Origin: a virus | IMG/VR virus record: IMGVR_UViG_3300009790_000010 | Span: 1-61,201 of that record | DNA: 61,201 bases | Reading direction: 5' to 3' (one strand) | Shown: one piece after another, positions 7,644-39,226 of the stretch | Numbering within the stretch: the stretch's first letter is position 1 | How the letters are laid out: every line of letters starts with the position of its first letter | Made by a program: the position numbers and the translations under genes | The notes under the pieces: model-generated | Database searches by the model: none | Told to the model about the DNA's origin: nothing | The model's input: the letters and a program-made list of their open reading frames with translations, nothing else

Positions 7644-8927
7644 ATGTCTGATAATTTACAGCCACAAGGTAATTTTGGCATCCAGGACACCATGAATGTT
7701 GGTGGTGCTGGTGATACTCAATTACTAAACGATTTAATGGCTCCAGAAACTGCTCAAGCAGATCCTGAAGCTGTAGAACCTATAATCTCGGAAGTAGAGG
7801 ATACGATCCCTGAAAAGAAAACTCCTAAAGGGAAAGAAATTATTCCTCCTAAAAGTGTAGACGGAAAGACTGAAGAAGAAAAGCAAACTGGAGAATCTCT
7901 AATTGCTGACTTTTTAAGTGATGATCCAGATGCAGAAACTGAAGAGGAACAGGTGGTAGAAGAAAAAGCTGCTGAACCAGAGTCTAAAGATGTTTTAGAT
8001 GAGGTGGTAGAAGAAGAAGAAACTGAAACAGGTACTCCTAACTTCGAAGCTCTAGCTAATGATCTATTCAATCTAGGTGTATTTAATAAGGAAGGTGAAG
8101 AGGAAGTATCCATTTCAACTCCTGAGGATTTCTTAGCAAGATTTGAATCTGAAAAGAAAAAAGGTGCACAGGATTTAGTACAACAATTCATAGGTCAGTT
8201 TGGTGAAGATTATCAACAAGCATTTGAATCCATCTTTGTAAAGGGTGTTAACCCACAACAATATTTCGGAACTTACAATAACATTGTAAACTTTACCGAA
8301 ATGGACTTATCCAAAGAAACTAATCAGAAACAAGTGATGAAACAAGCACTTAGTGATCAAGGATTTGAAGCAGAAGACATAGATAAAGAGGTTGAAAGAT
8401 TAAAAAGTTATGGAGATCTAGAAGCCGTATCTACCAGACATCATAAGGTGTTGGTAAAAAAAGAAGCTAAGAAGCTTCAACAACTAGAAGCCCAGTCTCA
8501 ACAAGAGTTACAACAAAAGAATGCTATTAAGCAACAATATCAAACTAATGTTCAGACTATACTTTCAGATAAAGTAAAAGAAAAAGAGTTCGATGGAATA
8601 CCTATCAACTCTAATTTAGCAAACGAACTACAAGACTTCTTACTAGTGGATAAATGGAAAACACCTAGTGGAGAAACCCTAACCGATTTTGATCGTTCTA
8701 TCTTAGATTTGAAAAGACCAGAGAATCATGAATTAAAAGTAAAAGTGGGATTACTCCTTAAGATGTTAGAAAAAGATCCATCATTATCTACGATACAAAG
8801 AGCAGGTGTGACTAAAAAATCTAACCAGTTATTTGGAGAAGTTGCAAGACAAGTTACTAAAGCTAAAACCGTTGCTTCTAAAAAACCTAGTAGTAACAAT
8901 AAGAAACCTAATTCATGGTTCTTGTAA
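7644..8927 (+). CDS. Acidic scaffold-like head protein, 427 aa
   Basis: Lies between portal and major capsid genes, the classic place for a scaffolding protein. Residues about 40-150 are extremely acidic (repeated EEE, EE and DDPDAET) and low-complexity, followed by long helical, Gln/Lys/Glu-rich coiled-coil segments (about 260-320) and a basic C-terminal tail (KKPSSNNKKPNSWFL). An acidic body with a basic tail is the usual scaffolding design, the tail contacting the capsid protein. No protease motif is visible. It is preceded by a 156-base A/T-rich spacer with no convincing promoter. An internal-head-protein role is the main alternative. Confidence 0.75.
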   Translation: MSDNLQPQGNFGIQDTMNVGGAGDTQLLNDLMAPETAQADPEAVEPIISEVEDTIPEKKTPKGKEIIPPKSVDGKTEEEKQTGESLIADFLSDDPDAETEEEQVVEEKAAEPESKDVLDEVVEEEETETGTPNFEALANDLFNLGVFNKEGEEEVSISTPEDFLARFESEKKKGAQDLVQQFIGQFGEDYQQAFESIFVKGVNPQQYFGTYNNIVNFTEMDLSKETNQKQVMKQALSDQGFEAEDIDKEVERLKSYGDLEAVSTRHHKVLVKKEAKKLQQLEAQSQQELQQKNAIKQQYQTNVQTILSDKVKEKEFDGIPINSNLANELQDFLLVDKWKTPSGETLTDFDRSILDLKRPENHELKVKVGLLLKMLEKDPSLSTIQRAGVTKKSNQLFGEVARQVTKAKTVASKKPSSNNKKPNSWFL

Positions 8928-14387: not shown

Positions 14388-17300
14388 ATGATATCACCCA
14401 AACTAACCAATTGTAAGGAGTGTGCAAACATTCCTGATTTACTTAGGAAGATAGACTGCAAATTAGCAGAGCTTGGAAACAACTTATACAACAATGTTGT
14501 ATTTATGTTGAATAAGCCTATTGCTAATAGCGAGATATCTCAATTGTTAGTATATAAACGTGTTTTACAACACAGATTTTGTGATACTCATTATGCTGAA
14601 AGTTGTCCCACTGTAAGTACAGAGGATATTGCTAGCAAAGTTATTCGTCTTACAGCTGGTTGTGTACCATTCTGTAACGAACCAACTGTATGTGAAATAA
14701 CTACATGTGCTCTTAATCCATGTCCTAATCCTACAACTACTACTACTAGTACGTCAAGTTCAAGTACAACTACTACAACAACTTTAGCACCAACTACTAC
14801 AACAACTACAACTCTTAACTGTAACTTTAGTGGTTCTATTGATTGTAGCATCACTACAACAACTACCACCACTCCAGCACCTACAACAACTACCACAACA
14901 ACTTATTTCCCAGATCCATTTGGTGTACCATGTCTATGGTCTACTAACGGTGGTGATCCAGGACTAATTGGCGTATATGACTTTGAAACAAACACAGCTA
15001 CGGATGTATTAGTTCCTAATGACTTTAATGAGACATACGGTATTGAAAGACCTATATGTGCTACAGAAGATAAAGTTTGGTTAGCTAGTGTGGTTGATAT
15101 AGCACCTAATTCTCAGTCTAATGATAAGGTGTATATTAGAGAGTGGGATATAGATGCTACAGGTGTAGTCCCTGTATTGATTTATGTAAGAGAAATAACA
15201 GTGTACATGGATACATACCAAGGATATAATCTTGGAGGTACTTCTATATGGGCCATGACTGCAAAAGACAATGATACACTTATCGTTGGAACAGGTAATG
15301 AATATGGAGCACCAGCAGGTACTGGTGGAACTGGTCAATTCTATGGTATTAAGTTGGACATCTCAACTGCAGGAGATTTTACAATAGATGATATTCCTAC
15401 TGAGAATTCTGAATCTATAGGTACGACAACTAGTGGTACAGGTAAAATAAGTAATATTACTTATACAAACTCAGGACACTTTATATTATCATATAGATAT
15501 GATTTAAAACCTGATGGAGCTGGACAAGCTAGTAAAGTAGGTAATTGGATAAGAGTGTTCCCTACATATCCAGGTGATCCTAACTGGGTGCATGGTGAAG
15601 TTGTTATTCAACCAATTAAACTTCAACTTAATGGATATCCAGAATTTACAAATAATTATACAGGAGTAAAAGATGCACCTTTCTGGGGTGTGAATGGATT
15701 AGCACAAGTATTACACCCAGAAACTTTAGAGGTGTACACAATAGATCAATTACCTCCTTATAACTTAACATTGACAACTAGTGTAAATAGTTCTAATGAC
15801 TGGTTAAGTTCAGCTACACATTGTTCTAACGTTGAATTTGAAATATTAGATAATCCTGATTGTGGTCTTACATATTTCCCTCCTTTCTTCTTTGATGCAG
15901 AGGGTAATCCAGCTGATCCTAATTTTGGTGGTGTATATGATCCTACCCCTCAGGAATTCCAATATTTTGGAATGACATGTACAGCAACGATAGCAAATAA
16001 TGTTGATGCATTAAGATGGGTAGCCCAATCCACTGACCCTTACCCAGTACCTATAGGATGTAGTGGACTTGTACGACCACCATCTGTGGGTGTGCCTTTT
16101 ACACGTATAGTCCAAGGTAATGACTTTAGTATTACAATTGAGTTCCCTGAACCGATGAACGATGTTCCAATTAGAGCTTCTGTTCTAAATAGTAATGAAG
16201 ACGGTACAAGTGGAGATGTATATTATGTAGAAACTAATGGTGGAACTCCAACACTTTCTATAAATACAGGATGTTTCGTTCAAGTTAATGGTAATAGATT
16301 ATTCGGTGGAGTAGCAAATCCTCCATTTGAAACTGCATATAATAATGAAGGAGATGGAGAGTTTAAAGTTACTGCTCCTGCTAACTATACATCTATGACT
16401 ATATATGGGAATGCACCAACTGGTGGGAACCTGTTCTTAGGATGTCCTCCTCCTAATTGTAAGAACATGGTGTATATACAACAAGGAGCAACTTCTTGTT
16501 CTGATCCTGAAAGTGCAGGACGTTGTGTGAGTCCTCCTGATGTTCCAGTAGAGCAGCCTACTTGGACTCCAATTCTAGTTTGGAATAAAGATACAGGTGT
16601 ATGTACAGAAGTAGGACCTCCACCAGGTACAGCTTTCAGCTCAGGTGATGTTTCTATAGGAGATAATATAGTTGTAACATCATCTAATTTTAGCCTTACC
16701 CCCTCTACTAGAGATCAGTGCTTTGTTAAATACGACTGTACTGTTACAGACGGAGTTCCTTCAAATCTACAATGGGATGAGAAGAGGTACGTACTACCTC
16801 CTTTCTGGGATAATTTTAATAATGATACATTTATTCCAAACCTTGAAGTAATTAACGATAATCAAATAGGTGTAACAGTAAGTAAATTTAGCGTAGGAGC
16901 ACCATGTTGGTATGATGTAAGATTTTTAATCTGTACCTTCCCTGAAATCGGTGAGGAAATGATAGTGGAGGAGAAGTTCCAATTTGCATGTGCAAGTACA
17001 AACACTGGAGACATAGTAGTAACATATAAACCAGACGGTGTAACACTTAATAAATTAATAGCATTACAAGGTGTAGAGGTAGCTGTGGAGGATGGTGTTT
17101 TGGTAAATAAACTTGCAGTTACTCAATATGATATAGCAACAGGAGCTTTAGAGGTAGTTACTAAAGCAGAAGATTTTATAGATCCTAGTGGTATTGGTGC
17201 ATCTCTTGCCATAGTGGACGGAGAACTTTATGCAGGTTCGGCAGTTTGGGCTAAAATAGACTGGAACTATCCATATGCATGGACTCTACTTGCTAATAAT

Positions 17301-17489
17301 GAAAAACCATGTCCAGCTGGAGGAGCTGGTACAGTACCTGCTTGTAGAATAACTGATGGTTTTGTACCTAGTCCAGTAAGTACAACTACTACTACTACAG
17401 ATCCTAATACAACAACCACTACAACCACTACAGTTCCAGGAGTAAGAACAATATTTACTAAATTTAACCTTTTTAACCAATCAGTATAA
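14388..17489 (+). CDS. Modular tail-fibre/adhesin protein with poly-Thr linkers, 1033 aa
   Basis: Architecture from N to C: a Cys-containing helical N-terminal domain (about 1-112) likely to be the virion anchor; two Thr/Ser-rich linkers (about 115-142 and 156-173); a beta-rich, propeller-like region with repeated xVWLAS/TLIVGTG-type strands (about 175-480); further beta-sandwich domains containing Cys pairs; a second propeller-like segment; and a C-terminal poly-Thr linker followed by a short tail (VPGVRTIF). The beginning of the propeller (CLWSTN...GVYDFET) resembles the beginning of the C-terminal propeller in the muzzle-like protein at 27849. No enzyme motif is seen. A role in surface attachment or host recognition is inferred. 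One base separates it from the protease-fibre gene. Confidence 0.82.
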   Translation: MISPKLTNCKECANIPDLLRKIDCKLAELGNNLYNNVVFMLNKPIANSEISQLLVYKRVLQHRFCDTHYAESCPTVSTEDIASKVIRLTAGCVPFCNEPTVCEITTCALNPCPNPTTTTTSTSSSSTTTTTTLAPTTTTTTTLNCNFSGSIDCSITTTTTTTPAPTTTTTTTYFPDPFGVPCLWSTNGGDPGLIGVYDFETNTATDVLVPNDFNETYGIERPICATEDKVWLASVVDIAPNSQSNDKVYIREWDIDATGVVPVLIYVREITVYMDTYQGYNLGGTSIWAMTAKDNDTLIVGTGNEYGAPAGTGGTGQFYGIKLDISTAGDFTIDDIPTENSESIGTTTSGTGKISNITYTNSGHFILSYRYDLKPDGAGQASKVGNWIRVFPTYPGDPNWVHGEVVIQPIKLQLNGYPEFTNNYTGVKDAPFWGVNGLAQVLHPETLEVYTIDQLPPYNLTLTTSVNSSNDWLSSATHCSNVEFEILDNPDCGLTYFPPFFFDAEGNPADPNFGGVYDPTPQEFQYFGMTCTATIANNVDALRWVAQSTDPYPVPIGCSGLVRPPSVGVPFTRIVQGNDFSITIEFPEPMNDVPIRASVLNSNEDGTSGDVYYVETNGGTPTLSINTGCFVQVNGNRLFGGVANPPFETAYNNEGDGEFKVTAPANYTSMTIYGNAPTGGNLFLGCPPPNCKNMVYIQQGATSCSDPESAGRCVSPPDVPVEQPTWTPILVWNKDTGVCTEVGPPPGTAFSSGDVSIGDNIVVTSSNFSLTPSTRDQCFVKYDCTVTDGVPSNLQWDEKRYVLPPFWDNFNNDTFIPNLEVINDNQIGVTVSKFSVGAPCWYDVRFLICTFPEIGEEMIVEEKFQFACASTNTGDIVVTYKPDGVTLNKLIALQGVEVAVEDGVLVNKLAVTQYDIATGALEVVTKAEDFIDPSGIGASLAIVDGELYAGSAVWAKIDWNYPYAWTLLANNEKPCPAGGAGTVPACRITDGFVPSPVSTTTTTTDPNTTTTTTTTVPGVRTIFTKFNLFNQSV
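14732..14904 (+). repeat. Poly-threonine coding tracts
   Basis: Two runs of ACA/ACT/ACC codons (14732-14813 and 14853-14904) encode T-runs interrupted by S, A and P, separated by a short Cys-containing insert. Synonymous codons are mixed, so the amino acid rather than the DNA repeat appears to be conserved. Confidence 0.85.
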
Positions 17490-17490
17490 G

Positions 17491-20058
17491 ATGGAAGTAA
17501 CACAAGCAGTACATGATAAGATTTTAGAGCTACACAAACTGTATCCTAAAGCTACTGGTATTGGGCTAGGGAAGAAGATAGTTAATGGAGTGGACACTGG
17601 AGAGTTTGCTATTCAAATAGCAGTTCCAGAAAAGAAACCAATTTCTCAAATACCAGCAGATGAGTTAGTGAGTGCTGAAGTGGATATAGATGGTTTAAAA
17701 ATAAAAACTGATGTCGTAGAAATATCTTATAATATACGTATGACATGTGACAGTGATTGTGGTAATATAAATCCTAATCCACATAATGCAGACAATAGAG
17801 CTACTCAAAGACCTTTAAAAAGTGGAATAGCTGTATCAAGTAGAAATAATGATTCAACTGTAGGAACTCTAGGAGGTTTTGTAATACATAGTGAAACTAA
17901 TGGTGTAGTTGGTTTAACAAACAATCACGTTTCAATCAATGATGCTTTCTTTACATCTGATAGAGACATTAATGGCTTTTTATTAAATGACGCATTTCCT
18001 GTAAATAGAGTTTATAATAATGTACAAGGTCCTAGTACACCTACATCTAATAACTTCGGAGTAAGTTTAAGATATGTTCCTATACATTCTATTGCTTCAG
18101 GACAAGTAAATCAAGTGGATGCTGCTATATGTTCAGTAGCACAGGAAGATTTTTCATCAACTGCATCTTGGTTACAAGTAGGACTGGAATCTATAATGGG
18201 ACCAGACGCTCCACCTTTTGCAAGCACTCAAGAGTTAGATAATATATTAGCTACAAATCCTCCTTTATATACAGCTGGTTACAGAACTGGTGCTAAAGGA
18301 TTGGAACCTGAGTGTCCTCTAAGAGTAAGTTCTTCTCCTCAGTTAGTAAGTCCAATATGCTATCAAATGCAAAATCCTACACAAGCTGATTTAAATCTTC
18401 TATGTGTTGATAGTGATTATGCTGTACCATGTACATTTACAAGATCTATACAGTTTGTAAAACCTACACAAGAAGATCCTAATTCTCAAACTCCAGGATG
18501 TTATAACCCTATATATAGTGGTGATTCCGGATCTATGTTATTAGCAGATTTTAACGGAGTAATTAAAATAGTAGGACTAGTTTATGCTGGTTCAGGTGAT
18601 GCTACTGGTACTATATATGGTCTCGCATGTAGAATAGATGATGTAGCTGATCAGTTAGGAATAGAACAATATGTAACCACTGGAGGAGTAGGATCATCAT
18701 TAATGATAGACCCTGATAGTGTTACATACATAACTATTGATGGTGCAAGTGATGAGAAAATTATATATTGTGAGAATGAAGAATACTGGCAAGTAGGATT
18801 TACAGGTTCACTAGAAGCTAATTGTGGTCCAACCACTACTACTACCACCACTCCTATACCTACCACTACAACAACAAGTAGTTCTACAAGTACAAGTACG
18901 TCCACTACAACAACTACTGCAGTTCCAACTGTTAAATTAAATTGGTATCTTGAGACTGATACTCCTGCAGATATAGATACTGTGAGTATGGAGATATCTA
19001 GAAATGGTGTATCTGAAGCCACCTCATCTATTACAACAGCAACAACCCCAACTACTGGATTCGTAGACTGTAATACAGGTGATACTATAGCTGTAACAAT
19101 AACCAACACTAAGGCTGGTACAAATAATCTTAATAATAGAGGAATTCTTGATGGTGTTGTTCTATTAAACGACACATCACTAGAAACTGGATCAAAAGTT
19201 TCTACATTCTCCTTTACAAAAACAGGAGCTACAGAGGATTTAGAAATGAAGGGAAATGTTGAACCTACAACCACTACTACTTCTACTACTACATCTTTTG
19301 TAATGACTTGGGAGTTTGAAGGTGTAGAGCCTAGTACTACTAAGTCTTGGAGAGATACAACACTTGAAATATTTAATAACGGAGTTACAGTAGTAGGTCC
19401 TCTAACATTTGATGCAGGTACTCCTACAGGTAGTGGAACATTCACAGTGAGTCCAGGAGACAAGATAACTCAAAGTCTTACTACAGATAACAACCCTTCA
19501 TCATACCCACAATATGCAGAACATGAACAGTATAAAGGAAGTGTATCAGGAGGTATAACTTTACTGGATACGGATTCAGGTTTTATAGCAGCTAATGCTT
19601 CTAAGACAGATACCTTAACTTTATTAACAATAGGTGCTACACCAACAGATCCAAAGATAAAATATAAAGTTATTGTAACTGCTGCTTCAACATCGAGTAT
19701 TACTGTAGATATGGAAGATATAGGAAGTACGGCTCAGTTTTTAAGTATTACTGATACAACAGATTCTAATATAGGAAAGTTCTTTGAGAAGACATCTACT
19801 ACAGCAAGTGATGGAACCTACACTACTGAGTTCTTCCAAGAAGGTCACGTATATGAATTAGAAATGTCTTATCAGAAATCAGCTCCTGGAGATGATGATA
19901 CAATATTACAAACAGCAGTAGGGGCAGGTGCTTCATTAGTTTCAGACAGTGATACAGGTGTAGCTCAAAGTATAATAGGACCTATTACTACTACATTTAG
20001 TCCAACTAATGTAACTGGTGGAACTATAACAATCGGATTTAGTCAAACATCACCATAA
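17491..20058 (+). CDS. Trypsin-like serine protease fused to beta-sandwich repeats, 855 aa
   Basis: Residues 1-80 match the N-terminal module common in Nal1-like/bacterial trypsin-fold proteins (ATGIGLGKK... FAIQIAVPEKK ... IDGLKIKTDVVE). Residues about 110-395 form a chymotrypsin-fold domain with a full triad: H146 in LTNNHV, D210 in QVDAAI and S346 in YSGDSGS. Thr/Ser-rich linkers (about 448-477 and 592-601) then connect two beta-sandwich repeats of similar pattern (LNWYLE...NG...GDTIAV and MTWEFE...NG...GDKITQ) and a last beta domain. No signal peptide is present, so the protein probably reaches its target on the virion. It could cleave host surface proteins, mature fibres, or be an adhesin-processing enzyme. 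The protease call is strong; the target is unknown. Confidence 0.88.
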   Translation: MEVTQAVHDKILELHKLYPKATGIGLGKKIVNGVDTGEFAIQIAVPEKKPISQIPADELVSAEVDIDGLKIKTDVVEISYNIRMTCDSDCGNINPNPHNADNRATQRPLKSGIAVSSRNNDSTVGTLGGFVIHSETNGVVGLTNNHVSINDAFFTSDRDINGFLLNDAFPVNRVYNNVQGPSTPTSNNFGVSLRYVPIHSIASGQVNQVDAAICSVAQEDFSSTASWLQVGLESIMGPDAPPFASTQELDNILATNPPLYTAGYRTGAKGLEPECPLRVSSSPQLVSPICYQMQNPTQADLNLLCVDSDYAVPCTFTRSIQFVKPTQEDPNSQTPGCYNPIYSGDSGSMLLADFNGVIKIVGLVYAGSGDATGTIYGLACRIDDVADQLGIEQYVTTGGVGSSLMIDPDSVTYITIDGASDEKIIYCENEEYWQVGFTGSLEANCGPTTTTTTTPIPTTTTTSSSTSTSTSTTTTTAVPTVKLNWYLETDTPADIDTVSMEISRNGVSEATSSITTATTPTTGFVDCNTGDTIAVTITNTKAGTNNLNNRGILDGVVLLNDTSLETGSKVSTFSFTKTGATEDLEMKGNVEPTTTTTSTTTSFVMTWEFEGVEPSTTKSWRDTTLEIFNNGVTVVGPLTFDAGTPTGSGTFTVSPGDKITQSLTTDNNPSSYPQYAEHEQYKGSVSGGITLLDTDSGFIAANASKTDTLTLLTIGATPTDPKIKYKVIVTAASTSSITVDMEDIGSTAQFLSITDTTDSNIGKFFEKTSTTASDGTYTTEFFQEGHVYELEMSYQKSAPGDDDTILQTAVGAGASLVSDSDTGVAQSIIGPITTTFSPTNVTGGTITIGFSQTSP
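18831..18921 (+). repeat. Poly-threonine/serine linker coding tract
   Basis: Encodes a T-run with S and P breaks between the protease domain and the first beta-sandwich repeat. A second short tract lies at 19264-19292 between the two sandwich repeats. Confidence 0.85.
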
Positions 20059-26821: not shown

Positions 26822-27838
26822 ATGTCATACTACTATAAATACGATTTTGTATCCCCAGAGCCTCTATATGCTACAGTAAAAGAAGAGCTTAAAAGTTATT
26901 TTGATACTGGTGCTGTAGATGATTTATTATTCCCTACCTATCTAGACAAATGTCTAAGAAAGATGGGCAGAACAACTTATAAAATTACTACAGAAGTTTT
27001 ATTTATAGAAGACTTTCAGGCAAGATTACCAGATAACTTTCATGCAGTGAGAGAAGCATGGATGTGTGCTGTAATTCCAGGGAACCCTTATCCAGCAGCA
27101 TCTTCTTTCTACACTCAAGCTGCAAATGCTACTACTATTCAAGTGGCACCTCTAACTATAGGTGGTACACCTTGTAATAATCCTAAATGTCAACATCCTA
27201 ACTGTGATGGAACATGTATGCCTGAAGTGGTACAAGCTGTATATAAAACAAACAGTGAAATACCTAGAGCGTACAGAAGAACCTACTTACTTAAACCAGG
27301 AAATATATCTGCACGTAAAAGTTGTAATGTAGACTACACTAGTTCGTGGAGTCAATATAATCAACTAGCTGTAGCAGGTCGTGAATTTACTCCTGGATCT
27401 TCCACTTACGATTCTTTTGATATAAGAGATAATAAGTTTGTTACAAACTTTAGAAGAGGAGTAGTTCATTTAGTATTCTATTCTACTGATTATGATAAAA
27501 TAGGTAATCAATTAGTACCAGACAACTATCGTGTAAGAGAATACATAGAATCATTTATTAAATTTAAAGTATTTGAAACTCTAACTAATCAAACCAATGA
27601 TGAAACATTTAATCAATTACAAACAAAGTTAGTCTATTATAAACAATTAGCAGACGAAGCTTGGGTTATGGCAGAAACAGAACTTAAAAAAGAGACAACT
27701 TATCAAAAACAAAGAAGAGTTGTAACTGATCTTAATCGTAATAACATGTATGAATTACCTGATGCAAAGTCTCAAGTATCAGGAAGATACTCAAATAGAT
27801 ACGGGTATGGTTTATGGAGACGTAATGGTTGGAGTTAA
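26822..27838 (+). CDS. Neck/ring protein, 338 aa
   Basis: Begins with a helical region (VKEELKSYFDTGAVDDLLFPTYLDKCLRKMG) and a beta-rich middle with an insert containing a CNNPKCQHPNCDGTC cluster that could hold a metal ion. The C-terminal part is helical and basic, ending Tyr/Gly/Arg-rich (SGRYSNRYGYGLWRRNG). It sits directly before the muzzle-like giant and is likely one of the rings between portal and tail. The motif-level evidence is limited; the role is inferred from gene order. Confidence 0.75.
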   Translation: MSYYYKYDFVSPEPLYATVKEELKSYFDTGAVDDLLFPTYLDKCLRKMGRTTYKITTEVLFIEDFQARLPDNFHAVREAWMCAVIPGNPYPAASSFYTQAANATTIQVAPLTIGGTPCNNPKCQHPNCDGTCMPEVVQAVYKTNSEIPRAYRRTYLLKPGNISARKSCNVDYTSSWSQYNQLAVAGREFTPGSSTYDSFDIRDNKFVTNFRRGVVHLVFYSTDYDKIGNQLVPDNYRVREYIESFIKFKVFETLTNQTNDETFNQLQTKLVYYKQLADEAWVMAETELKKETTYQKQRRVVTDLNRNNMYELPDAKSQVSGRYSNRYGYGLWRRNGWS

Positions 27839-27848
27839 TAAATAGTAT

Positions 27849-30800
27849 ATGGCTACTAAAAAAGAAAAAGACGACATTGCTTCAGGTTTAAGTGCGGCTA
27901 AGAAAAAAGTTGCTGCTGCTCAGAAGATGGATGCTGCTCAGAAAGGACAGGTAAGGCTTGAATATAATCAAGCTCAGACTGGTCTTAATATGGATAGCAC
28001 TATCAATCAAGTAAAGACAGGTAGTCTTACTTATGCATTGAATGCTACTGTAGAAAACTTTGATTCTAGTTCTGTAAACTATCAAAACGAACCTGGTAAT
28101 GAACCGTGTCTCTCCTTTCCTAATGGGTATGAACTTATAGGAAAACATACTATTCCTGAGAAAAAGATAAACATATTCTTTCTAACTAATCCTGCCACTA
28201 GTGATAGTGAAATTGGCTTCATGTATAATAATGATTGTCAATATCGCAAGCTAGTAAATGCTCCTTGTTTAAATTTTAGTATTGATCATCCTATACCAAA
28301 GGTGGTACATCGAATAACAAACTGTACTACAGAGATATATTGGACTGATGGATTTAATCCTCGAAGATATTTAGATGTAGAATTAGATGAAAATTTAGTA
28401 CCTATTAATCTTCCTTATGTATTACTAAGTGGGTCTCCTGATTGTTTTCCTGTATATAGTGATGAGTTAGACTGTAATCAATTAAAGATACAGCCGAACT
28501 TTGATATACCTTTATTAGAAATTAGTAGTGTTTTAAATGTAGGGAGTTTAGTGGCTGGAACTTATCAGTTTGCTGTGCAATATGCAGATGCATTAGGTAA
28601 TGACTTAACTTCTTATTATTCTGTTACCAATCCTACACCAATTGCTGATCCTCTTATCACTACTGTAAACTTCAATTATCCTGTGGGTAAATCAATAGAA
28701 GTAAAAGTATCAAACATAGATATTTCAGGACAATATGGATACTATAATATTGCTGTAATAAAAACTATAAATGATATTTCATCAGTAGAATTAGTAGGCA
28801 CTTACAGTATTACTGAAAAGGAGGAGGTTATAACATATACAGGAGCAGATGCAAGTCCTATTCAATTATCTATTGCTGATATCTTTGAGAAATATCCTTA
28901 TTATGATGTAGCGGGAGATCTAACTACTGTTCAAGATATATTAGTGTGGGACAATTTAACATCTATAGATAGAATCAACTATCAAGGTATAGCAAATCAA
29001 ATAAATTTAGATTGGCAGACACATAGATTACCTCCAGACGAAAATTATTCTGATGAGTTAAATGCTACTAATCTTCGTGGATATATGCGTGATGAGATAT
29101 ATGCATTTGAAATAGCTTTCCTTTTAAGAAATGGAAAACAAACAGATTCGTTCCACATACCTGGACCTGCTAATCCTGGAGTATTATATCCTGATGTACC
29201 TAATACCAATGATGACTTTATTGGAGAACCTGATTATTATCAAAATGGTATAGGATACAGTGCATATTGGAAGATATATAATACTGCTCGATTAATAGAT
29301 TATGAGGCATCTGCAGACCAACAAGCAGATCCTAACTATAAAGGACCTTGGCAATACGGAGAATTTGCATACTGGGAATCTACAGAGAAGTATCCCTGTA
29401 ACGAAGATATGTGGGGAGAGTTAGCTGATAAACCTATTAGACATCATAAGTTTCCAGATGTATTGGTAAGCCCTATTGTAGAGAATAGTGAAATTGTATA
29501 TCAAGATGGACAAATAGTTCCTGACATGCAAGACAGTGCAGTGTTTCCTCTGGGAGTAAAAATTGATAATACTCAAATATCAACTTTAATAGCAACCTCA
29601 GGTTTAACACAAGATCAAAAAGATGATATTGTAGGATACAAAATTGTTAGAGGAGATCGTGGTACAAACAAATCAGTAATAGCAAAAGGTATACTTAGAA
29701 ACATGAATAAGTATACTAGAGAAGATCAAGAATATTACTATCCTAATTATCCTTACAACCAAGTATCTGGACAAGATGCATTTATACAAGAGAATAATAA
29801 TGCTTATAACATAGATTCTAAACCATGGCTTGTATATTTCCCTAAGCAAGAAGTTATTCCTAGTTGGGAGGATGGATATGATCTGGATGATCCATACGAG
29901 GAGATGGAATGGTGGCAAGAGATTGGTGACTTTATCGAACAAGAAGATGGAGTTTTTCAATATACCAGTGTAGAAAATGGTAAACCTACTCCAGCACCTA
30001 TTAAGCCAGGATGTGTGGTAGAAGTATGTTCTCTCACAAGACCTATAGGCCTTAGAGGAATAATGACAATAGGTCCTGGTGATTATGATGCATGGAGATG
30101 TTATAATGGTAGTAATGCTATTGCTGGTTTCAGAACTATATCTCAAAACCCTTTCAATACTCTAAACTTTGATGGCACTATTGCAGCACGTAAATTCTGG
30201 GAGACTGATGTAGTGTTTGGTCTCATCGGTACGGATGAGAAAGGAACTGTCCTAACTCCTATAGATCCTGACTTTGATTATGCAGATGGAGCTGCAGTTG
30301 GTACTAATGCTCATGATCATATATGGCGTCCAGAGATTCAAAGACCAGGTCCTGATTATTTAACTGCTGCAAGAGTAAAATTACACAACTATAATCAAGC
30401 TTCAGAGTGTCCAGATTCTTCAAATATAGCATCATGGCCAATTGGATGTTTTGATCAATTAGAGGGAGATGATGTTCCGTGTAGTGGTGGTTCGAGTAAT
30501 AGTGCTTGTCAATGTTGTGAGGGAAGAAATGAACCAGGTCTTCCGGCATTTGGACTACCTACTAATCCTCTTCCTGAAATAGAACCTAATCCAACTACCA
30601 GTGAAAATACTTTTAAACCTCAAACAGCTTTCACTGATGGTGGGAGTGGGGCACTGAGCGGTTATAGTAGACACGGTAGAAGGTCTTGTTTAAAGTGTGA
30701 TAGAAATGTACCTATTAAACCATTAGATGGTCAGGATGCAGAGGATGTAAAAAATCTTCTAGATAAAGTAGTTTTTAATTCTCCTGATACTTCATTCGGA

Positions 30801-33800
30801 CAACCCTTCTTAGGAAGTGTATTGAAGTTAGAAAGTGTAATGTTTGGAGGGGGTAAAGGGCACTTTGTAGAGGTTAAAGATAATGCTAAATATAAACTAC
30901 TTAGTAAGGAGGCTCAACAAGATGCATTAGATAGTTCAGAAAGAGTAGCTAACATGGGCTCCGATGGATTCAATGCTGGTATAATGTTTACAGTGTATCA
31001 GTCCTATCTTACTATCTATATCAATGGTATAACAAGACAGAATTATGCAATGTCTTTTAACTCAAGAGCTAACTATGATTATTCTTTTCCTATTGACAAT
31101 AATGTTAGCGGTGGTATCAAACAAAGAGAAATAGAACTTACTAGATATTTAATACCAGGAGTACAATCATTTAATAATAATGACTTCCCTATAAATAATT
31201 GGAATAGAGAATCTTCAGTATATATAAAAACTAAAGCTAGAACAATTACTACTGAACCTCTACCTCTTCCACAAAATACAGATAGTCTTCTAGATACTGA
31301 TGGTAATCCTAGTATTGTAGAGTTTTCAAGATTCAATATTGGGCAGATAGGTAATTGTGATAAACCTAGTAAAGAAGAAGACATAAAGGTAGTATCTTAT
31401 TATGCTTCAATGAAGAATATAATACCTAACCAATGGGGACAAATAAACTCCTTCCAAAGAATAGATACTGGTTATCAGAGTCTTGTTACAGCAGAAGGAA
31501 CATCTAGTATATTTGGAGGAGATGTATACATCTCTCGTTTTGCATTTAAAACTAAACTACCATTCTTTATTGATAATAGAGTAAATGCTCCTGATGATTC
31601 TGATATATTCTTTGATGAAATAAGTAATGTGGCCTATGCTAAATACTGGCATTCAGCTAGGTCTATATTGTCCAACTATACTGTGACCTCAGGAGACGAT
31701 GCACCTCAAAATATGTTCAATCTTATATCTACTAAGGCTCATAATTTAGATTGTGCTTCTGATCCTTCGACTTATACTCAGGGTACATTTAATAATATAG
31801 CAGGTACTTACAGAACTTTCTATGATGGATATATGTATTTGTTTGCATACGGTATTCCTAACTTCTATTGTGAAAGTGTATATAATACCGACTTACGTCA
31901 AGCATTTAATACTAAAGAAGGAGACTTCTGGCCTCATGTAAATAGTAGTATTCCGGATGATTGGGTTCAAGAAAGTAATGTACCTATCGCACAAGATAAT
32001 ACATACTATTATAATGTTACATTCTCTAAACAAAACAAAGAAAATGTATTTACTCAACTACCTTTAGATTGGTCCGATGTATGTTTTACATTCTTTCCAT
32101 TTAGAGCTATCTATTCAGATACACAAACAGACAGTCCAGATAATAGAGTGAATAATTGGTTGGTATATAGAGCTGCATCTTTCTTTGACTTCCCACAAAA
32201 CTATGGAGCTTTAACATCATTAGATGGTATTGAAGATAAGGGAGTACTAGCAAGATTTGAAAACAAAGCCCTATTATATAATAAACTACTTACAATAGAT
32301 ACAAGTAATCCTCAAGCAGCTTACATAGGTAATCCTAGATTGTTTTCTAGTTCTCCTCCAATAGACTTTGCTGAAACTGATCTTGGTTATGTAGGTTCTC
32401 AACATAAATTCTTACTTAAGTTACCATATGGTCAAGTTACTGCAGATGCTAAAAGAGGACAAATTTTTCTTATATCAGGAGGAAAGTCTATTGACCTAAC
32501 AGGAGTGCAATCAGGAGTAAATCGATTTATAACAAACAGTTTACCTTTTGAAATACTAGAGTACTTCCCAGAGGTAAATGTAGATAACCACTTTGCTGGA
32601 ATAGGACTACACGGAGTTTATGATAGTAAGTTTGATAGAATAATTATTACCAAACTAGATTATATTCCTCTAAATGATGGGATATATTATGACCCATCAG
32701 ATAAAAACTTTTATATAGATATACCAGATGATCCTTCTACGCCAGAAGAAGATAGTGTAAGACAAGAGGTATTCTTATTTGATGAAAATTATTTCTGTAA
32801 TAAGTCATGGACTATGTCTTTTGATTTTAGTACTAAGAGTTGGATATCATTTCACTCTTACTTACCTAATTTCTATATTGGGGAAAATAATTTCTACTAT
32901 TCAGGCATCAATGAATGCTGTTCAAATTTTACTGCAGTACTTGAAACTCCTGATAGAAGTAAAATTGGAGATGAGGAACCTGCTCTTGATATGATAATAG
33001 GAGTGCTGGATCCTGTTGCTCTTATTACAACTAGTACAACTACTACTTCTAATCCTTTATTTACCACTACTACAACTACTGCATATATACCTGACTGCTC
33101 TATTAACATAGCGATATCAGAAGAACTAGGATGTGAGATAGATGGAGTAGGGTATATAACTGTACCTAGTCCTACCACTACAACAATATGTGTGAGACCT
33201 GAACCTCTCGCATCAAATATATTTGTAGAAGGGTATCAAATAAAAGGAACTGCTACTCCAGTAGTAGGAACAGCCACTGCAGAAAGAGCATGTGCTGTAG
33301 CTTCGTTTGCTTTTAATGCTACATCAAACGATGAGATTATTCCTATTAACTTTAATTATGAACATTATGTATTCCCTGCAACAAATAGTATTGTTAATGC
33401 TCAAGTATGGTTAGGTTTAGGTGATGATTGTACATCTGTTCCTGATGGTTGGTATAGTAATCAAGGAGAACCTAACAATGTCTACTATGTAGAAAATGGG
33501 TTTATAAGACAAGAAGTACCGTGTGATTGTAATACTACTGCACCTACCACCACTGCATATACAGGAAGCTTTAATGAATGTTGTGCATGGTTATTAAATG
33601 ATGATGATGGTAATGTTAAATTATATGACTCTTTCCATTATACTGGTGTTCCAATTACAATACCTGGATATACTGCTGGTACTAAACTAGCAATTGGACC
33701 GAATACTTTATATGCATGGGATGGTAGTTTAGCATTTAACAAATGGACTATAAATACAACTAACTGGAGTGCAGTAAAAGAGTTAGATATAACACCAGCT

Positions 33801-34022
33801 GGATTTAATACAACAGCTGGAGTGGTAGTTAAAGATGATAATACACTAATAGCACTAGACACAACTGCAGGTGATGTAGTAGAGATAGATACTTCAACAG
33901 CAGCAGTAACAGTTAAGTTTACTTTACCAGTTGGTTATACATGGACAACAAATCTACTATATACTAGAACAGGTAAACTAATAACAATAGGAAAAAACAC
34001 TGGAACAACAGATTTCCATTAA
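27849..34022 (+). CDS. Giant tail (muzzle-like) protein, 2057 aa, cut by an in-frame TAA
   Basis: Large beta-rich protein placed after the neck genes, where crAss-like phages encode the tail muzzle. The first 45 residues are charged and Ala-rich; the following 1650 are beta-type with many Trp/Tyr and surface-like Asn/Asp. From about residue 1720 come poly-Thr linkers (33028-33079, 33175-33186, 33535-33558), a domain like the C-terminal domain of the copy 2 fibre (NAQVWLGLGDD...NQGE...YYVENGFIRQEVPC), and propeller-like blades (KLAIGPNTLYAWDG; VVVKDDNTLIALDT; RTGKLITIGKNTG). The frame stops at TAA (34020-34022) inside a blade, and the same frame stays open to 34565. The full protein would be 2238 aa. 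The nearest relatives are expected to lack this stop. Confidence 0.85.
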   Translation: MATKKEKDDIASGLSAAKKKVAAAQKMDAAQKGQVRLEYNQAQTGLNMDSTINQVKTGSLTYALNATVENFDSSSVNYQNEPGNEPCLSFPNGYELIGKHTIPEKKINIFFLTNPATSDSEIGFMYNNDCQYRKLVNAPCLNFSIDHPIPKVVHRITNCTTEIYWTDGFNPRRYLDVELDENLVPINLPYVLLSGSPDCFPVYSDELDCNQLKIQPNFDIPLLEISSVLNVGSLVAGTYQFAVQYADALGNDLTSYYSVTNPTPIADPLITTVNFNYPVGKSIEVKVSNIDISGQYGYYNIAVIKTINDISSVELVGTYSITEKEEVITYTGADASPIQLSIADIFEKYPYYDVAGDLTTVQDILVWDNLTSIDRINYQGIANQINLDWQTHRLPPDENYSDELNATNLRGYMRDEIYAFEIAFLLRNGKQTDSFHIPGPANPGVLYPDVPNTNDDFIGEPDYYQNGIGYSAYWKIYNTARLIDYEASADQQADPNYKGPWQYGEFAYWESTEKYPCNEDMWGELADKPIRHHKFPDVLVSPIVENSEIVYQDGQIVPDMQDSAVFPLGVKIDNTQISTLIATSGLTQDQKDDIVGYKIVRGDRGTNKSVIAKGILRNMNKYTREDQEYYYPNYPYNQVSGQDAFIQENNNAYNIDSKPWLVYFPKQEVIPSWEDGYDLDDPYEEMEWWQEIGDFIEQEDGVFQYTSVENGKPTPAPIKPGCVVEVCSLTRPIGLRGIMTIGPGDYDAWRCYNGSNAIAGFRTISQNPFNTLNFDGTIAARKFWETDVVFGLIGTDEKGTVLTPIDPDFDYADGAAVGTNAHDHIWRPEIQRPGPDYLTAARVKLHNYNQASECPDSSNIASWPIGCFDQLEGDDVPCSGGSSNSACQCCEGRNEPGLPAFGLPTNPLPEIEPNPTTSENTFKPQTAFTDGGSGALSGYSRHGRRSCLKCDRNVPIKPLDGQDAEDVKNLLDKVVFNSPDTSFGQPFLGSVLKLESVMFGGGKGHFVEVKDNAKYKLLSKEAQQDALDSSERVANMGSDGFNAGIMFTVYQSYLTIYINGITRQNYAMSFNSRANYDYSFPIDNNVSGGIKQREIELTRYLIPGVQSFNNNDFPINNWNRESSVYIKTKARTITTEPLPLPQNTDSLLDTDGNPSIVEFSRFNIGQIGNCDKPSKEEDIKVVSYYASMKNIIPNQWGQINSFQRIDTGYQSLVTAEGTSSIFGGDVYISRFAFKTKLPFFIDNRVNAPDDSDIFFDEISNVAYAKYWHSARSILSNYTVTSGDDAPQNMFNLISTKAHNLDCASDPSTYTQGTFNNIAGTYRTFYDGYMYLFAYGIPNFYCESVYNTDLRQAFNTKEGDFWPHVNSSIPDDWVQESNVPIAQDNTYYYNVTFSKQNKENVFTQLPLDWSDVCFTFFPFRAIYSDTQTDSPDNRVNNWLVYRAASFFDFPQNYGALTSLDGIEDKGVLARFENKALLYNKLLTIDTSNPQAAYIGNPRLFSSSPPIDFAETDLGYVGSQHKFLLKLPYGQVTADAKRGQIFLISGGKSIDLTGVQSGVNRFITNSLPFEILEYFPEVNVDNHFAGIGLHGVYDSKFDRIIITKLDYIPLNDGIYYDPSDKNFYIDIPDDPSTPEEDSVRQEVFLFDENYFCNKSWTMSFDFSTKSWISFHSYLPNFYIGENNFYYSGINECCSNFTAVLETPDRSKIGDEEPALDMIIGVLDPVALITTSTTTTSNPLFTTTTTTAYIPDCSINIAISEELGCEIDGVGYITVPSPTTTTICVRPEPLASNIFVEGYQIKGTATPVVGTATAERACAVASFAFNATSNDEIIPINFNYEHYVFPATNSIVNAQVWLGLGDDCTSVPDGWYSNQGEPNNVYYVENGFIRQEVPCDCNTTAPTTTAYTGSFNECCAWLLNDDDGNVKLYDSFHYTGVPITIPGYTAGTKLAIGPNTLYAWDGSLAFNKWTINTTNWSAVKELDITPAGFNTTAGVVVKDDNTLIALDTTAGDVVEIDTSTAAVTVKFTLPVGYTWTTNLLYTRTGKLITIGKNTGTTDFH

Positions 34023-34565
34023 TTCCAATGGGATTATGATAATGCAACGGTAGTACCAGAAATTGATTCCACAATTACCAGTTCAGAGTTTGTAGATTGT
34101 AGATGGATAGCAGAATGTGATTGTATTATAAGTATTATGGCTGAAGGTTCTACTTGTGAGAATTTTGCCTTTAGAGTAGAGAATGTATCTCCCTATACTG
34201 TAGTTGAACAAGGATGTCAAGACTATGTTCCAGATCCTGTAGAGCTGGATGATAACGATATACCTGTATGGAGTACTATGAGTGTTACTAATTCTACTCA
34301 ACAAATGGCTTGTGTTAATAAAGATACAGACCAATGGGGCACTACTACTACTAGTACTACAGCATCCCCAACTACTACCACTACAACTTCTGTCTACCCA
34401 TGTTATGGTTATGAAGTAGTAGGACCACAAGTGGTGTGGTATCCAAATTGTGTAGGAGAAGAACAAACAATATCTGTACCTAGTGGAGAAACTCTCGAAT
34501 TCTGTTCATCCGATAATACTATTACCGGAGCAGGAATAACCTTATTAGGAGCATGTAATTTATAA
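34023..34565 (+). pseudogene. In-frame 3' continuation of the muzzle-like gene after the TAA
   Basis: Downstream of the TAA the same frame runs open for 180 sense codons. It first completes the interrupted blade (FQWDYDNATVVPEID) and then continues with Cys-containing strands, a poly-Thr linker (34341-34390) and a final domain typical of fibre ends (GYEVVGPQVVWYPNC...VPSGETLEFC). The first ATG in this frame is at 34137, in mid-strand, so a separate gene starting there (142 aa) would lack the beginning of its domain. I read it as the detached tip of the upstream protein, made by stop-codon read-through, lost by mutation, or an artefact of one base. Confidence 0.75.
34341..34390 (+). repeat. 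Poly-threonine linker coding tract
   Basis: Encodes TTTTSTTASPTTTTTTS between the broken propeller and the last domain of the muzzle-like reading frame, with mixed Thr codons as in the other tracts. Confidence 0.85.
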
Positions 34566-34569
34566 CAAT

Positions 34570-35439
34570 ATGTCAAAAGTAATAAATTTAAAAATAACAG
34601 CAGCTACCCCTAGATCAGGACCTTTTGATATAATTCTTGATAACGGAGATATTATAGCTATTGGTTTAAGCTTAAGTGATTTAGTACACGGTGTAAGTTA
34701 TGAGGTACCTTCAGCTGTGGCTGCAGTTACTGTACGTTCTACAGGAGATTGTGAGTTCACAAAAACCTTTTTAGTAAGAGACAGTATTCCTAATCAAGAG
34801 TACATAAATGCAACATTTACTAAACTAAGAACAGGTTGTTTGTGGACCCATTTGAGAAACGATACTTTGTATAATTATTACTACGGAGATATTGCTCCTT
34901 ATATAATTGAGTATCCTTTTGCATATAAGTATCATGACCAGATACTACAGAATATAAAAGATTATAGTAAGGTGTATACATATATACCATCAACTCTAGG
35001 ATCATTTGATTCTAATAGTAAAATACAAACAGACGATAAATACTTTAATAAGGCTGTGTTATATAATGGACAACAGTCAACTGGTATAATAGAACTTGTA
35101 CCTAAACCAATGAATAACTTAAGTGAATATCTACAATACCCTATATTAAATAGTGATAGTAAAACTATTACATTTGCAAAGACAGATAGTTTCTATCAAT
35201 ATAATACTTTCTGGGCATTACAAAAAGATGATAAAGTACCTCTGTTTAAAACATCCTGTGAATCTAAATCAATAGATAAGGTGGTTAATCAGGACAACAT
35301 GAACTATGGTGACTTATCATTTAAGAAGTCACAACTAAGAGCTAAGAACGTAAAGGTGAGACACATATTAGACAACTCCTCTACTACACATATTGTGAGT
35401 CAGTTTATTGTAGCACCAGCACAAATATCATATAAATAA
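34570..35439 (+). CDS. Tail-associated protein with a divergent tandem-family domain, 289 aa
   Basis: Residues about 1-75 are a divergent copy of the fibre-block family domain (LKITAATPRSGPFDIILDNGD...SYEVPSAVAAVTVRSTGDCE). The remaining part is beta/aromatic-rich (NYYYGDIAPYIIEYPFAYKY...) and ends with basic strands. It begins four bases after the muzzle continuation and its stop overlaps the next start (TAATG). The shared domain links it to the fibre block 11 kb upstream, so it probably joins fibres to the tail. Family not otherwise recognised. Confidence 0.78.
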   Translation: MSKVINLKITAATPRSGPFDIILDNGDIIAIGLSLSDLVHGVSYEVPSAVAAVTVRSTGDCEFTKTFLVRDSIPNQEYINATFTKLRTGCLWTHLRNDTLYNYYYGDIAPYIIEYPFAYKYHDQILQNIKDYSKVYTYIPSTLGSFDSNSKIQTDDKYFNKAVLYNGQQSTGIIELVPKPMNNLSEYLQYPILNSDSKTITFAKTDSFYQYNTFWALQKDDKVPLFKTSCESKSIDKVVNQDNMNYGDLSFKKSQLRAKNVKVRHILDNSSTTHIVSQFIVAPAQISYK

Positions 35440-37586
35440 TGGCATTAACACCAGGTAAAGCAAAGAAAATGTTAGACGATGGAACTGTCCATGGTAGATC
35501 TCTGACTGATAAGCAGAAGAGATACTTCGGTGCTATAGCTGGAGGTGCAACACCTATGAAAAAGATCAACGGTGGTTGGTTAGACAAGTATGCAATGGGA
35601 GGTAGTCTTCCTGGTGCATCAGGTATGATGTACGGACGTTCTAATACAATGCCTCCATTATTTACTCAATCAGAAATGAAAGCTCCTTCATTTGCAGATT
35701 CATTAACTAAAGCTCAAAAGGGAACAAAAGAAGAAGTAGGCGATTTAGTTATGTATGGAACTCCAGAGTATGAAGCTGCATATAAAGAAGGAAGAATTAT
35801 TGGAAGAGATGGAACTATACCACTAGATGAAGTAGTTGTTAGAGCAGGTGTTGATTATGAAAAGCATTCTCGTTATAATCTTCTATCTCCACAACAGAAA
35901 GAGTATTATTTCGATGATGGACCAATTGGTAGAGGTGTACAAAGAGCTGCTCGAACAGACAGAGGATTATATGAAGACACACTAGATGTTGTTAATCCTA
36001 TATTATATACAGCAATAGGTACTGCTGCTCTTATGTCCCCACTAGGACAACCTATCACACAAGCACTTGGAGGTGCTGGTCGTGGAATATATAGTAAGGT
36101 TGCTCCTTGGGTTTCAAAAGCATGGAACTATACACCATTTAAAGGTCCTGGGTTTCAGCCTACAGTAGGGAACGTAGTGAATACAGGATTTTTAGCTGAT
36201 GGTATTAGAAGGTTCCCACAGAGTTATCGTAATATGCGTGATGATCCTTCTTGGTCTAATGCTGGTTGGTTAGGACTTAATGCTCTAGAAGTTGGGATAC
36301 CAGGTAACACTGGATTTCAATATATTAGACCACAAACCAGTGGAATTTCTCCTTTTATAGATGACCTAGGAAGAACTATAACAGCTAATACTAAAGCAGG
36401 ACGAGAGTATCAAAGAGTAGCTCAAAAACACTTGCAGTCAGCAGATATGTGGGGCCAGAGATATTTTAATAATCCTATAACAACAACAAGGATGTCTGAT
36501 GAAATGCTAACAGGTTTTAATTCTGCTCCTCCTATATCTCCACCAGGAGTGACTTCATTTAACTTCGCAATGAGTCCAGTTGAAGTAGTTAATGATTACA
36601 AAAAGCTGAGGGCGGGTTTACCTGATGATGAGGTGATTGATATGGTTTTAAAATATCAAAAGCTAAATCCTAACATGGTAGTAACTCCTCAGAACTTAGC
36701 TAATCAACTTAGTGTAAATGTGTCTAGGTATAATCGAATGAACCCTGGGGTTACTCACTCAACACTGAGTCCTTTAGACAATTCAGCTGGTGTTTCTAAT
36801 GTTTTAGGTAGATACTCTCATATCCATAATGATCGTGTGATAGATATAGGTAATCCTATTTTTACAGGTTTAAAGAATTATAAAGATTTTCGTATCAACC
36901 CCTTTGGAAAAAGTAAACTATATGATAATGCCAATTTCGATAAGATCTATCAAACTGCAATTCATGAAGGAGATCACTTCTACAGAGTTGGATCAAGAGG
37001 AAACTTAACAGCTACTGATATAAAATTACTTATGCCTTTTAAACAAGGTCTAATAAATAAGTATGGTAAATACATGAATGAGTCTGGTGAAATAATATTG
37101 AAATCTGATGCTGCAAAAGCTTTAAAGAAAAGTGATCCTGAGGCATTCGCAAAACTTGAGTTTGCAAAATATGCAGGTACAGCACCAGAAATAAATGCTC
37201 GAATAACACAAATAAGAAACCTGTATAATATTAAACCAGGGCAACAGGTGGATATGAGTACAGTAGAAGAAATTATTAGAGCTGGAAAAGCTGGGGAACT
37301 TGGTACAGGATTGGGTGGAGGTAAAAAAGGATTCTCAGAATTCTTCGACTTTATAGATGACGTGCAAGGAAATGTACCTGGTAGTGTAGCTACTACAAAA
37401 GAATGGTTGCAAGGTATATTAATGAACATGTCCAAAACTGGTTCAAAAATAAAACCTCTTAAATATGGAGGTAATGTTGATAAAGCACAAGAGGGAGAAG
37501 TTTTAGGATTTGATAATATACTAGATTATATAGTAGAAACTAGAGACGGAACTAGAGATATGTGGGAGAGGTTGCAGATACAATAG
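35439..37586 (+). CDS. Probable cargo protein with zincin-like HEGDH motif, 715 aa
   Basis: Begins with a basic helical segment and carries the short motifs GGWLDKY (45-51) and LDEVVV (129-134) that recur in the next gene. A Gly/Ala-rich hydrophobic stretch follows (about 185-230). Near residue 500 the segment IYQTAIHEGDHFYR contains H509-E-G-D-H513, the HExxH signature of zinc metallopeptidases, in a helix-like context. A third ligand is not obvious. C-terminal part: charged helices, a Gly-rich turn (GTGLGGGKKG) and a QEGE-type segment. It ends in TAG, the only TAG stop among these genes, overlapping the lysozyme-like gene by 25 bases. In crAss-like phages this region encodes proteins carried inside the particle. 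Confidence 0.78.
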   Translation: MALTPGKAKKMLDDGTVHGRSLTDKQKRYFGAIAGGATPMKKINGGWLDKYAMGGSLPGASGMMYGRSNTMPPLFTQSEMKAPSFADSLTKAQKGTKEEVGDLVMYGTPEYEAAYKEGRIIGRDGTIPLDEVVVRAGVDYEKHSRYNLLSPQQKEYYFDDGPIGRGVQRAARTDRGLYEDTLDVVNPILYTAIGTAALMSPLGQPITQALGGAGRGIYSKVAPWVSKAWNYTPFKGPGFQPTVGNVVNTGFLADGIRRFPQSYRNMRDDPSWSNAGWLGLNALEVGIPGNTGFQYIRPQTSGISPFIDDLGRTITANTKAGREYQRVAQKHLQSADMWGQRYFNNPITTTRMSDEMLTGFNSAPPISPPGVTSFNFAMSPVEVVNDYKKLRAGLPDDEVIDMVLKYQKLNPNMVVTPQNLANQLSVNVSRYNRMNPGVTHSTLSPLDNSAGVSNVLGRYSHIHNDRVIDIGNPIFTGLKNYKDFRINPFGKSKLYDNANFDKIYQTAIHEGDHFYRVGSRGNLTATDIKLLMPFKQGLINKYGKYMNESGEIILKSDAAKALKKSDPEAFAKLEFAKYAGTAPEINARITQIRNLYNIKPGQQVDMSTVEEIIRAGKAGELGTGLGGGKKGFSEFFDFIDDVQGNVPGSVATTKEWLQGILMNMSKTGSKIKPLKYGGNVDKAQEGEVLGFDNILDYIVETRDGTRDMWERLQIQ

Positions 37587-39226
37587 CTTACCATGAATCT
37601 GGACATACTATGAACCCTAAGCAAAAACAAATAGGTGGAGGCCCAGGTAGAGGTGCGTTTCAATTTGAAGGTCCTTCACTTATTACAGCACAGAACAGAT
37701 ACAAGACTGTTGCTAATGTAATGGGTCTAGATTTTAATCCTAACATCTTGAATGCTAAATCAGCAGATGAACTATCACTAGAAGATCAGTATACTTTATT
37801 CTATGTAAACCTGTTAGAAGGTGATGCAGAATTAGGAAAATATCCAAAAGGTGAACTAGATCTAATAGATCTATGGTTACAAGGACATAAGAATGTAGAA
37901 GTTCCAGGTAATAGAGAATCTTTTTTACACAGTAGAGAAACAGCTAAAGAGAAAGGTATAGAAGGGGGATATAAAACTTTCAAAACAGGAGGATGGTTAG
38001 ATAAGTATGAAGTGATAGAAGATGACATGGGACAGTTAACCAACCCAGGAAAGATAACTAAAATAAACTCCAACAACATAACAATGAAAGGAGTAGACTT
38101 TCCTGTGCTAGGAATATCTGACACTGGTGATAAGAAGATGATGCAACCAGGTAAAGATTACAAGTTTGATGGTAACTCTGTTACAGAGTATCCTATGGCA
38201 CAAGGTGGTATGAATGTACCTCTTAAAACGGTTAATAAGTTTGGCGAACTAGAAAGACTAACTTACCCAAGTAGTGTATGGAAAGACAAAGAAGGTAATC
38301 CTGAACAACTCGTTATGTTAGATGAAGTAGTTGTTGATTCAAAAGGTCCTATAGCATTAGCTAAAGAACAAATGGAAGAGTATGGAATTCCTAATTTTCA
38401 AACAGCAGGTTATGTTAAAGGTAAGTCTGAAAGAGCATATAATAATATAACTCCTGAAGGTTATGGAAACATACTAAAAAATCTTGATAGAAAAAAGAGA
38501 TATGATGAAGACCTAGGACGTGATCCAGAAGCTTTGTGGCATTCGGGCCCCAAAGATAATAAGAGACACTACATTATACCTAACCGAGAAGATGCATTTA
38601 GACTATATCTAGGAATGCCACAAGTTAATAATAGTTTTGCTGTAAGTGATTACAGACCGGGTGACTCAGAAGATAAGAGTATGGTTTATTTAAAACCTAA
38701 TTACTTTAATGAAGCTCCTATTAGACAGGCATTAGTAGATCAGTATTTTCAAAGAAAGAAAGATGGATATGTTGATAAAGATAAAAAAACAATAGGTAAT
38801 GAAAGAGGACTACCAAGAGGAAAATATCAAGGAGATGGTACAACATGGCCTGAGGCAGATAACTCTTTAGGAGATTTTACATTTGATATGGGAGAGGATG
38901 AAAAAGGAACTTACATATCTATATATGATATATGGGACTTGAATCCATTCCAACAGGGAGAGGGATCATCTGTAAATAAGGCAGGTCGGGCTTTGTTAAA
39001 TTGGTTTAATAAACAAAGTAAGAACAAAGCTACTTCAGAATCAGAAGTATCTGCTTTATTTGGAGCAGGAAAACCATTTGAAATATATGAAAGAATATAT
39101 ATTGACCCAGAAACCAAGAAAATAATACAGATGAAACAGGGAGGATCTTTGGTCAGATTAGATCAATTGACTAACTTTACAAACTATAATACCCCACAAC
39201 CAGGCGGCTGGTTAGATAAATACTAA
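37562..39226 (+). CDS. Lysozyme-like cargo/tail protein, GTG start, 554 aa
   Basis: The first 60 residues match the lysozyme/transglycosylase pattern: IAYHE12SGH (E12 is the expected catalytic acid), then IGGGPGRGAFQFEGPS and a helix with NRYKTV. These enzymes cut the glycan backbone of peptidoglycan, here probably to let DNA through the cell wall. The first in-frame ATG (codon 17) lies after E12, and a TAG lies three codons upstream of the GTG at 37562, so the GTG is the only start that keeps the domain; a frameshift from the upstream gene is the alternative. Later parts carry GGWLDKY at 143-149 and again as the last seven residues (548-554), and LDEVVV at 253-258. The protein continues into a polar region of unknown role. 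Confidence 0.8.
   Translation: MGEVADTIAYHESGHTMNPKQKQIGGGPGRGAFQFEGPSLITAQNRYKTVANVMGLDFNPNILNAKSADELSLEDQYTLFYVNLLEGDAELGKYPKGELDLIDLWLQGHKNVEVPGNRESFLHSRETAKEKGIEGGYKTFKTGGWLDKYEVIEDDMGQLTNPGKITKINSNNITMKGVDFPVLGISDTGDKKMMQPGKDYKFDGNSVTEYPMAQGGMNVPLKTVNKFGELERLTYPSSVWKDKEGNPEQLVMLDEVVVDSKGPIALAKEQMEEYGIPNFQTAGYVKGKSERAYNNITPEGYGNILKNLDRKKRYDEDLGRDPEALWHSGPKDNKRHYIIPNREDAFRLYLGMPQVNNSFAVSDYRPGDSEDKSMVYLKPNYFNEAPIRQALVDQYFQRKKDGYVDKDKKTIGNERGLPRGKYQGDGTTWPEADNSLGDFTFDMGEDEKGTYISIYDIWDLNPFQQGEGSSVNKAGRALLNWFNKQSKNKATSESEVSALFGAGKPFEIYERIYIDPETKKIIQMKQGGSLVRLDQLTNFTNYNTPQPGGWLDKY

Follow-up and report, generated by a model that had tools for sequence, protein, structure and literature searches.

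An in-frame TAA in the C-terminal decoration of a two-gene crAss-like muzzle: probably a recent mutation that is tolerated, or else a sequencing error

When a very long phage gene is interrupted by a stop codon and the same frame continues open beyond it, it may be asked whether the stop is a signal, a lesion or an artefact, and what kind of protein would be able to bear it. The locus considered here lies in a virus record of 61,201 bases, a single contig (IMGVR_UViG_3300009790_000010), referred to in its whole length as the window. On its plus strand, the open reading frame 27849-34022 terminates at a TAA (34020-34022) and specifies a product of 2057 aa, while the same frame remains open for another 180 codons, up to the next stop at 34563-34565. 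This continuation is not due to chance: over their whole extent, the two halves match single, unbroken ORFs of related phages, the 180-residue downstream piece being 69% identical to that of the relative G003, and where the window reads FH, stop, FQWDYDN, the relatives read FHYFQWDYDN. Frames of 2219-2282 aa with no internal stop are found in 9 records that were searched. The break described in the first-pass annotation is thus confirmed by the ORF calls and by the intact frames of the relatives, and these homologues read through the site; had the protein naturally finished at this point, they would have ended there.

The relatives also indicate what preceded the stop. They were gathered by searches from both sides of it, with a degenerate pattern spanning it and with a profile, and in all 14 of the related IMG/VR contigs that carry the propeller described below the codon is TAT or TAC, in an invariant tyrosine column (near-identical contigs are included among them, and the distinct sequences number about 10). 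The TAA is therefore one substitution, at the third codon position, on the branch of the window record, and the origin from TTA or CAA that had initially been proposed is discarded, as the relatives carry a Tyr codon. As far as the alignment goes, the TAA appears as a derived, one-codon lesion that no relative shares, and pattern scans of viral and genome contigs, in which records very near to the window may be missed, returned no other record with this stop. The detached codons seem to have been under the same constraint as the rest of the gene, with no sign of long neglect: between the window and G003, dN is 0.218 and dS 0.916 in the 180 codons (dN/dS about 0.24), and 0.189 and 0.843 in the muzzle body (dN/dS 0.22), a comparison from which neglect confined to approximately the last tenth of the branch would escape. 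No further broken genes were seen on comparing the window ORFs with those of G003. The features on which the argument relies are collected in Table 1.

Table 1. Features of the muzzle locus, in positions of the window
Feature	Position	Strand	Basis
CrAss_Ring_1 tail ring protein	26822..27838	+	Pfam PF24228, E 1.6e-8, above cutoff
Muzzle body, residues 1-1690	27849..32918	+	Matches to csAssE-Sib, Lbo-JY46, phi17:2 and Fpv3; PHROG 37948, 15100
C-terminal decoration in the unbroken length seen in relatives, with linkers rich in Thr, small domains that contain Cys, the propeller and the tip	32919..34562	+	Comparison with relatives
Five-sheet beta-propeller of the decoration (modelled)	33588..34301	+	Residues 55-292 of the AlphaFold2 model, which reads through the TAA; Foldseek
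Exchanged cassette, about two blades (~255 bp)	33711..33965	+	95% nt identity to L035 vs 60% and 56% in flanks
In-frame TAA	34020..34022	+	Codon is Tyr (TAT/TAC) in 14/14 relatives with the same propeller
In-frame part beyond the stop (180 codons), with the end of blade 4, all of blade 5, the closing strand, the linker and the tip	34023..34562	+	69% identity to G003; dN/dS 0.24
Poly-Thr linker ahead of tip	34341..34388	+	Read from sequence
Tip domain, 57 aa	34392..34562	+	HMM from relatives only, E 1.7e-31
Next gene, with an N-terminal variable domain (~85 aa) followed by the C-terminal muzzle core (residues 86-289)	34570..35439	+	blast to outgroup muzzles

With respect to the identity of the protein, the window contains families of the terminase, the portal, the major head protein and Ring 1, and thus belongs to a tailed phage related to the crAss-like phages; a phage collection searched by DNA contained no match to it. 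The CrAss_Ring_1 gene is directly upstream of the long ORF, in the same order as gp43-gp44 of phicrAss001, and the body of the long ORF matches, by blastp and tblastn, the muzzle of csAssE-Sib and structural proteins of Lbo-JY46, phi17:2 and Fpv3, these matches ending at residue ~1689. To the annotated muzzle protein of csAssE-Sib (WOZ57294.1) the identity is 30% over 49% of the query (E 2e-48), and the similarity to gp44 of phicrAss001 is weak (blastp E 2.8e-4, hhalign probability 58%). Together with the neighboring ring gene, the identity to csAssE-Sib bears out the giant muzzle-like protein suggested at the outset. Near its N-terminus, the stretch 27967-28270 of the window is 91-97% identical to G001, vs 73% overall, and is possibly another exchanged segment; three further ORFs of the window (17491-20058, 35439-37586 and 37562-39226) differ strongly from their G003 counterparts in length or matches, which looks like tail gene mosaicism.

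The muzzle is not complete in this chain. The last ~200 residues of the single-chain muzzles match the next gene and not the long ORF: residues 73-289 of its product correspond to the C-terminal ends of the muzzles of Lbo-JY46 (8e-19), csAssE-Sib (4e-14) and Fpv3 (1e-12), and PHROG 15100 agrees, at positions 1589-1781 of 1783. This C-terminal core is a separate ORF in 26 of the 26 clade contigs that carry both parts, and is in the same ORF as the body in csAssE-Sib, Lbo-JY46 and Fpv3; a single chain holding both was found neither in the window nor in the clade contigs tested. With the core separate in the clade and joined in the outgroups, the muzzle of the clade represents a split variant, of which no description was found in the literature searched. 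Within the clade the core part is 84-97% identical to that of the window, the ~85 residues before it only 46-61%. When the product of the core gene is modelled alone, its first ~80 residues are confident and the core part mostly reaches a confidence of 22-40, as would be expected of half a fold, even if a shallow alignment could also explain it. Fusion of the frame ending at 34565 with the gene at 34570 by frameshifting was considered and rejected, given that the relative frame of the long ORF and the core gene varies among relatives, as it would in separate genes. Compared with the known Crassvirales muzzle (gp44 of phicrAss001; csAssE-Sib), the one described here likewise comes after the Ring 1 gene, shares 30% identity with csAssE-Sib and has the same C-terminal core, now as the next gene; in contrast, it is formed by two polypeptides rather than one, and carries a large Thr-linked decoration at the break.

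As the last ~200 residues of the muzzle are contributed by the next gene, the long ORF finishes in a free-ended decoration, which has no counterpart in the single-chain muzzles. A model obtained with AlphaFold2 for residues 1860-2238, with Tyr put at the stop, contains five four-stranded sheets in a circular array, that is, a propeller, with 10-residue blocks mostly at pLDDT 70-91, followed by a linker and tip that are poorly modelled. Among solved structures, the best Foldseek matches of this model are propellers, and the TM-score by target reaches 0.53; by sequence, no match was found in the PDB. The strand that the TAA interrupts in this model (residues 197-202 of the model) belongs to sheet four of five. 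The stop had been placed inside a propeller blade: this position is upheld by the model, and the propeller belongs to the C-terminal decoration and is not the muzzle's own. The poly-Thr linker and tip-like domain attributed to the detached part are supported by the sequence and by the HMM built from relatives. Related propellers are present in other phage proteins (L053-L056), with Thr/Pro-rich linkers after them in at most three of the four.

The decoration is the changeable part of the gene, with 39-86% identity by segment among relatives, vs 76-82% in the body segments compared, and with a length that ranges across the clade from 34 to more than 800 aa. In L094 it is reduced to 34 aa and is almost absent, and in L113 it has 165 aa; L111 ends in the poly-Thr linker, without the tip. 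In L078 there is another in-frame TAA (7748-7750), beyond which 70 codons stay open and encode a linker and a tip (HMM E about 1e-6, with a seven-sequence set); a closer relative of L078 lacking this stop, which would polarize it, was looked for and none was found. Other decorations have different contents: that of L096 (14228-16663), of 812 aa, includes a different propeller, of DUF5122 type, and in L095 the decoration is in part a gene of its own: an extra gene of 706 aa with a Fib_succ_major domain (15421-17538) separates the muzzle ORF from the core gene. Variation in muzzle length has been described in crassviruses, by insertion in the crass and IG2 domains (PMC10172136), and the likeness lies in the addition to the muzzle surface of segments of variable length; here, however, the addition sits where the chain is broken, close to the C-terminus, and its end is free.

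Within the propeller, moreover, a stretch of approximately two blades passes from one phage to another. In this cassette the nucleotide identity between the window and L035 is 95%, vs 60% and 56% in the flanks, and the same discordance appears between L033 and L042 (93% vs 55% and 56%) and between L040 and L044 (95% vs 67% and 62%); in the opposite direction, L033 and L038 share 53% in the cassette vs 95% and 89% in the flanks, and L040 and L042 87% vs 100% and 99%. These five pairs have about the same borders, the right one ~55 nt ahead of the TAA, and the segment represents an exchange hot-spot. As approximately these borders are seen again in records that come from different samples, the pattern is unlikely to be due to the window being a chimeric assembly. 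Copying within the same genome was also contemplated and rejected, no significant second copy being present in the window or in the G003 pieces.

How, then, should the stop be understood? Probably as a mutation that is recent and tolerated, if not as a sequencing error, rather than as a programmed signal. With some reserve, we favor a nonsense change that is recent and derived, striking a seemingly dispensable decoration of the two-part muzzle. In such a case, an ancestral product of about 2238 aa would have been hit at the conserved Tyr codon and would end inside blade 4 of 5, leaving the propeller open and losing the last blade and the tip; and this may be tolerated on account of the chain being already broken once, with the body in the first ~1690 residues and the core in a next gene with its own start. 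The stop may therefore survive because the decoration is free-ended between body and core gene throughout the clade, and the stop of L078 ahead of its tip, the missing tip of L111, and the fact that decorations vary in size and are exchanged, speak in the same sense. We infer that the phage population carries the TAA, that virions with the truncated protein would be viable and that the decoration may serve as an adhesin. Against a nonsense change, the cut falls in the middle of a blade and not at a domain border, and half a propeller may misfold; no second record with the TAA was found; and in the closest relatives only -4 to 6 nt separate the stop of the long ORF from the ATG of the core gene, a short spacing which suggests that both are translated in a coupled manner, so that a TAA breaking this coupling could lower the expression of the core, a cost to be weighed against the idea of a harmless stop. 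The main rival is an error of consensus or assembly, with the phage carrying the Tyr codon and a protein of 2238 aa, which we consider a real possibility, somewhat short of probable. One substitution in an otherwise intact frame, absent from every relative and with no sign of relaxed selection, is what it would produce, and as 5.05% of single substitutions in the coding DNA of the window create stops, an error rate of 1e-4 would give 0.28 premature stops per window; at 1e-5, however, only 0.03 would be expected, no other broken gene is seen in the window, and L078, from the same clade, has an independent stop that removes its own tip.

A functional readthrough or recoding, yielding the protein in a long form that has the tip and a short form that lacks it, had also been suggested, and is very improbable. 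An intact, constrained downstream frame and in-frame stops ahead of the tip in two members of the clade are compatible with it, but TAA is the normal terminator in the window, closing 26 of the 29 listed ORFs, which rules out its reassignment in an alternative genetic code; TAAT is the commonest stop context (12 of 28); the RNA downstream is no more stable than shuffled sequences (z 0.39 to 1.27); and neither a match in Rfam nor a tRNA in the window (ARAGORN) was found. Nor is the stop conserved, as it is present in 0 of the 14 relatives, and that of L078 is at another place. It is still harder to believe that the downstream part is a separate gene: an ORF of 142 codons does exist from 34137, the first in-frame ATG after the TAA, but this Met is found in the window only, the relatives having Val or Ile and reading straight through, and the product would begin in the middle of the propeller. 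A conserved independent start is thereby excluded, and the description of a broken frame survives.

On its own, the stop is a minor lesion; its importance is that it leads to a two-gene muzzle extending to the whole clade and to a two-blade exchange hot-spot, both of which hold whether the TAA is a mutation or an error. An annotation pipeline in which the ORFs are treated as separate would overlook the broken frame as well as the split core. In phages, nonsense or domain-exchange changes occur in receptor-binding tips, and the likeness with the present case resides in the loss or exchange of distal tail modules, here known from sequence alone. As a conjecture that we hold to be rather unlikely as it stands, the split muzzle of the clade would free an adhesin-like end of the decoration, which the phages would repeatedly trim or exchange, changing host recognition while the core of the muzzle remains untouched; the cases that may be cited are the nonsense stops ahead of the tip part, or inside it, in the window and in L078, the tip missing from L111, the almost absent decoration of L094 and the exchanged blade cassettes. 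In any case, the split muzzle and the hot-spot point to the part with which uncultured crAss-like phages are likely to contact the cell, and offer a testable route to their host specificity.
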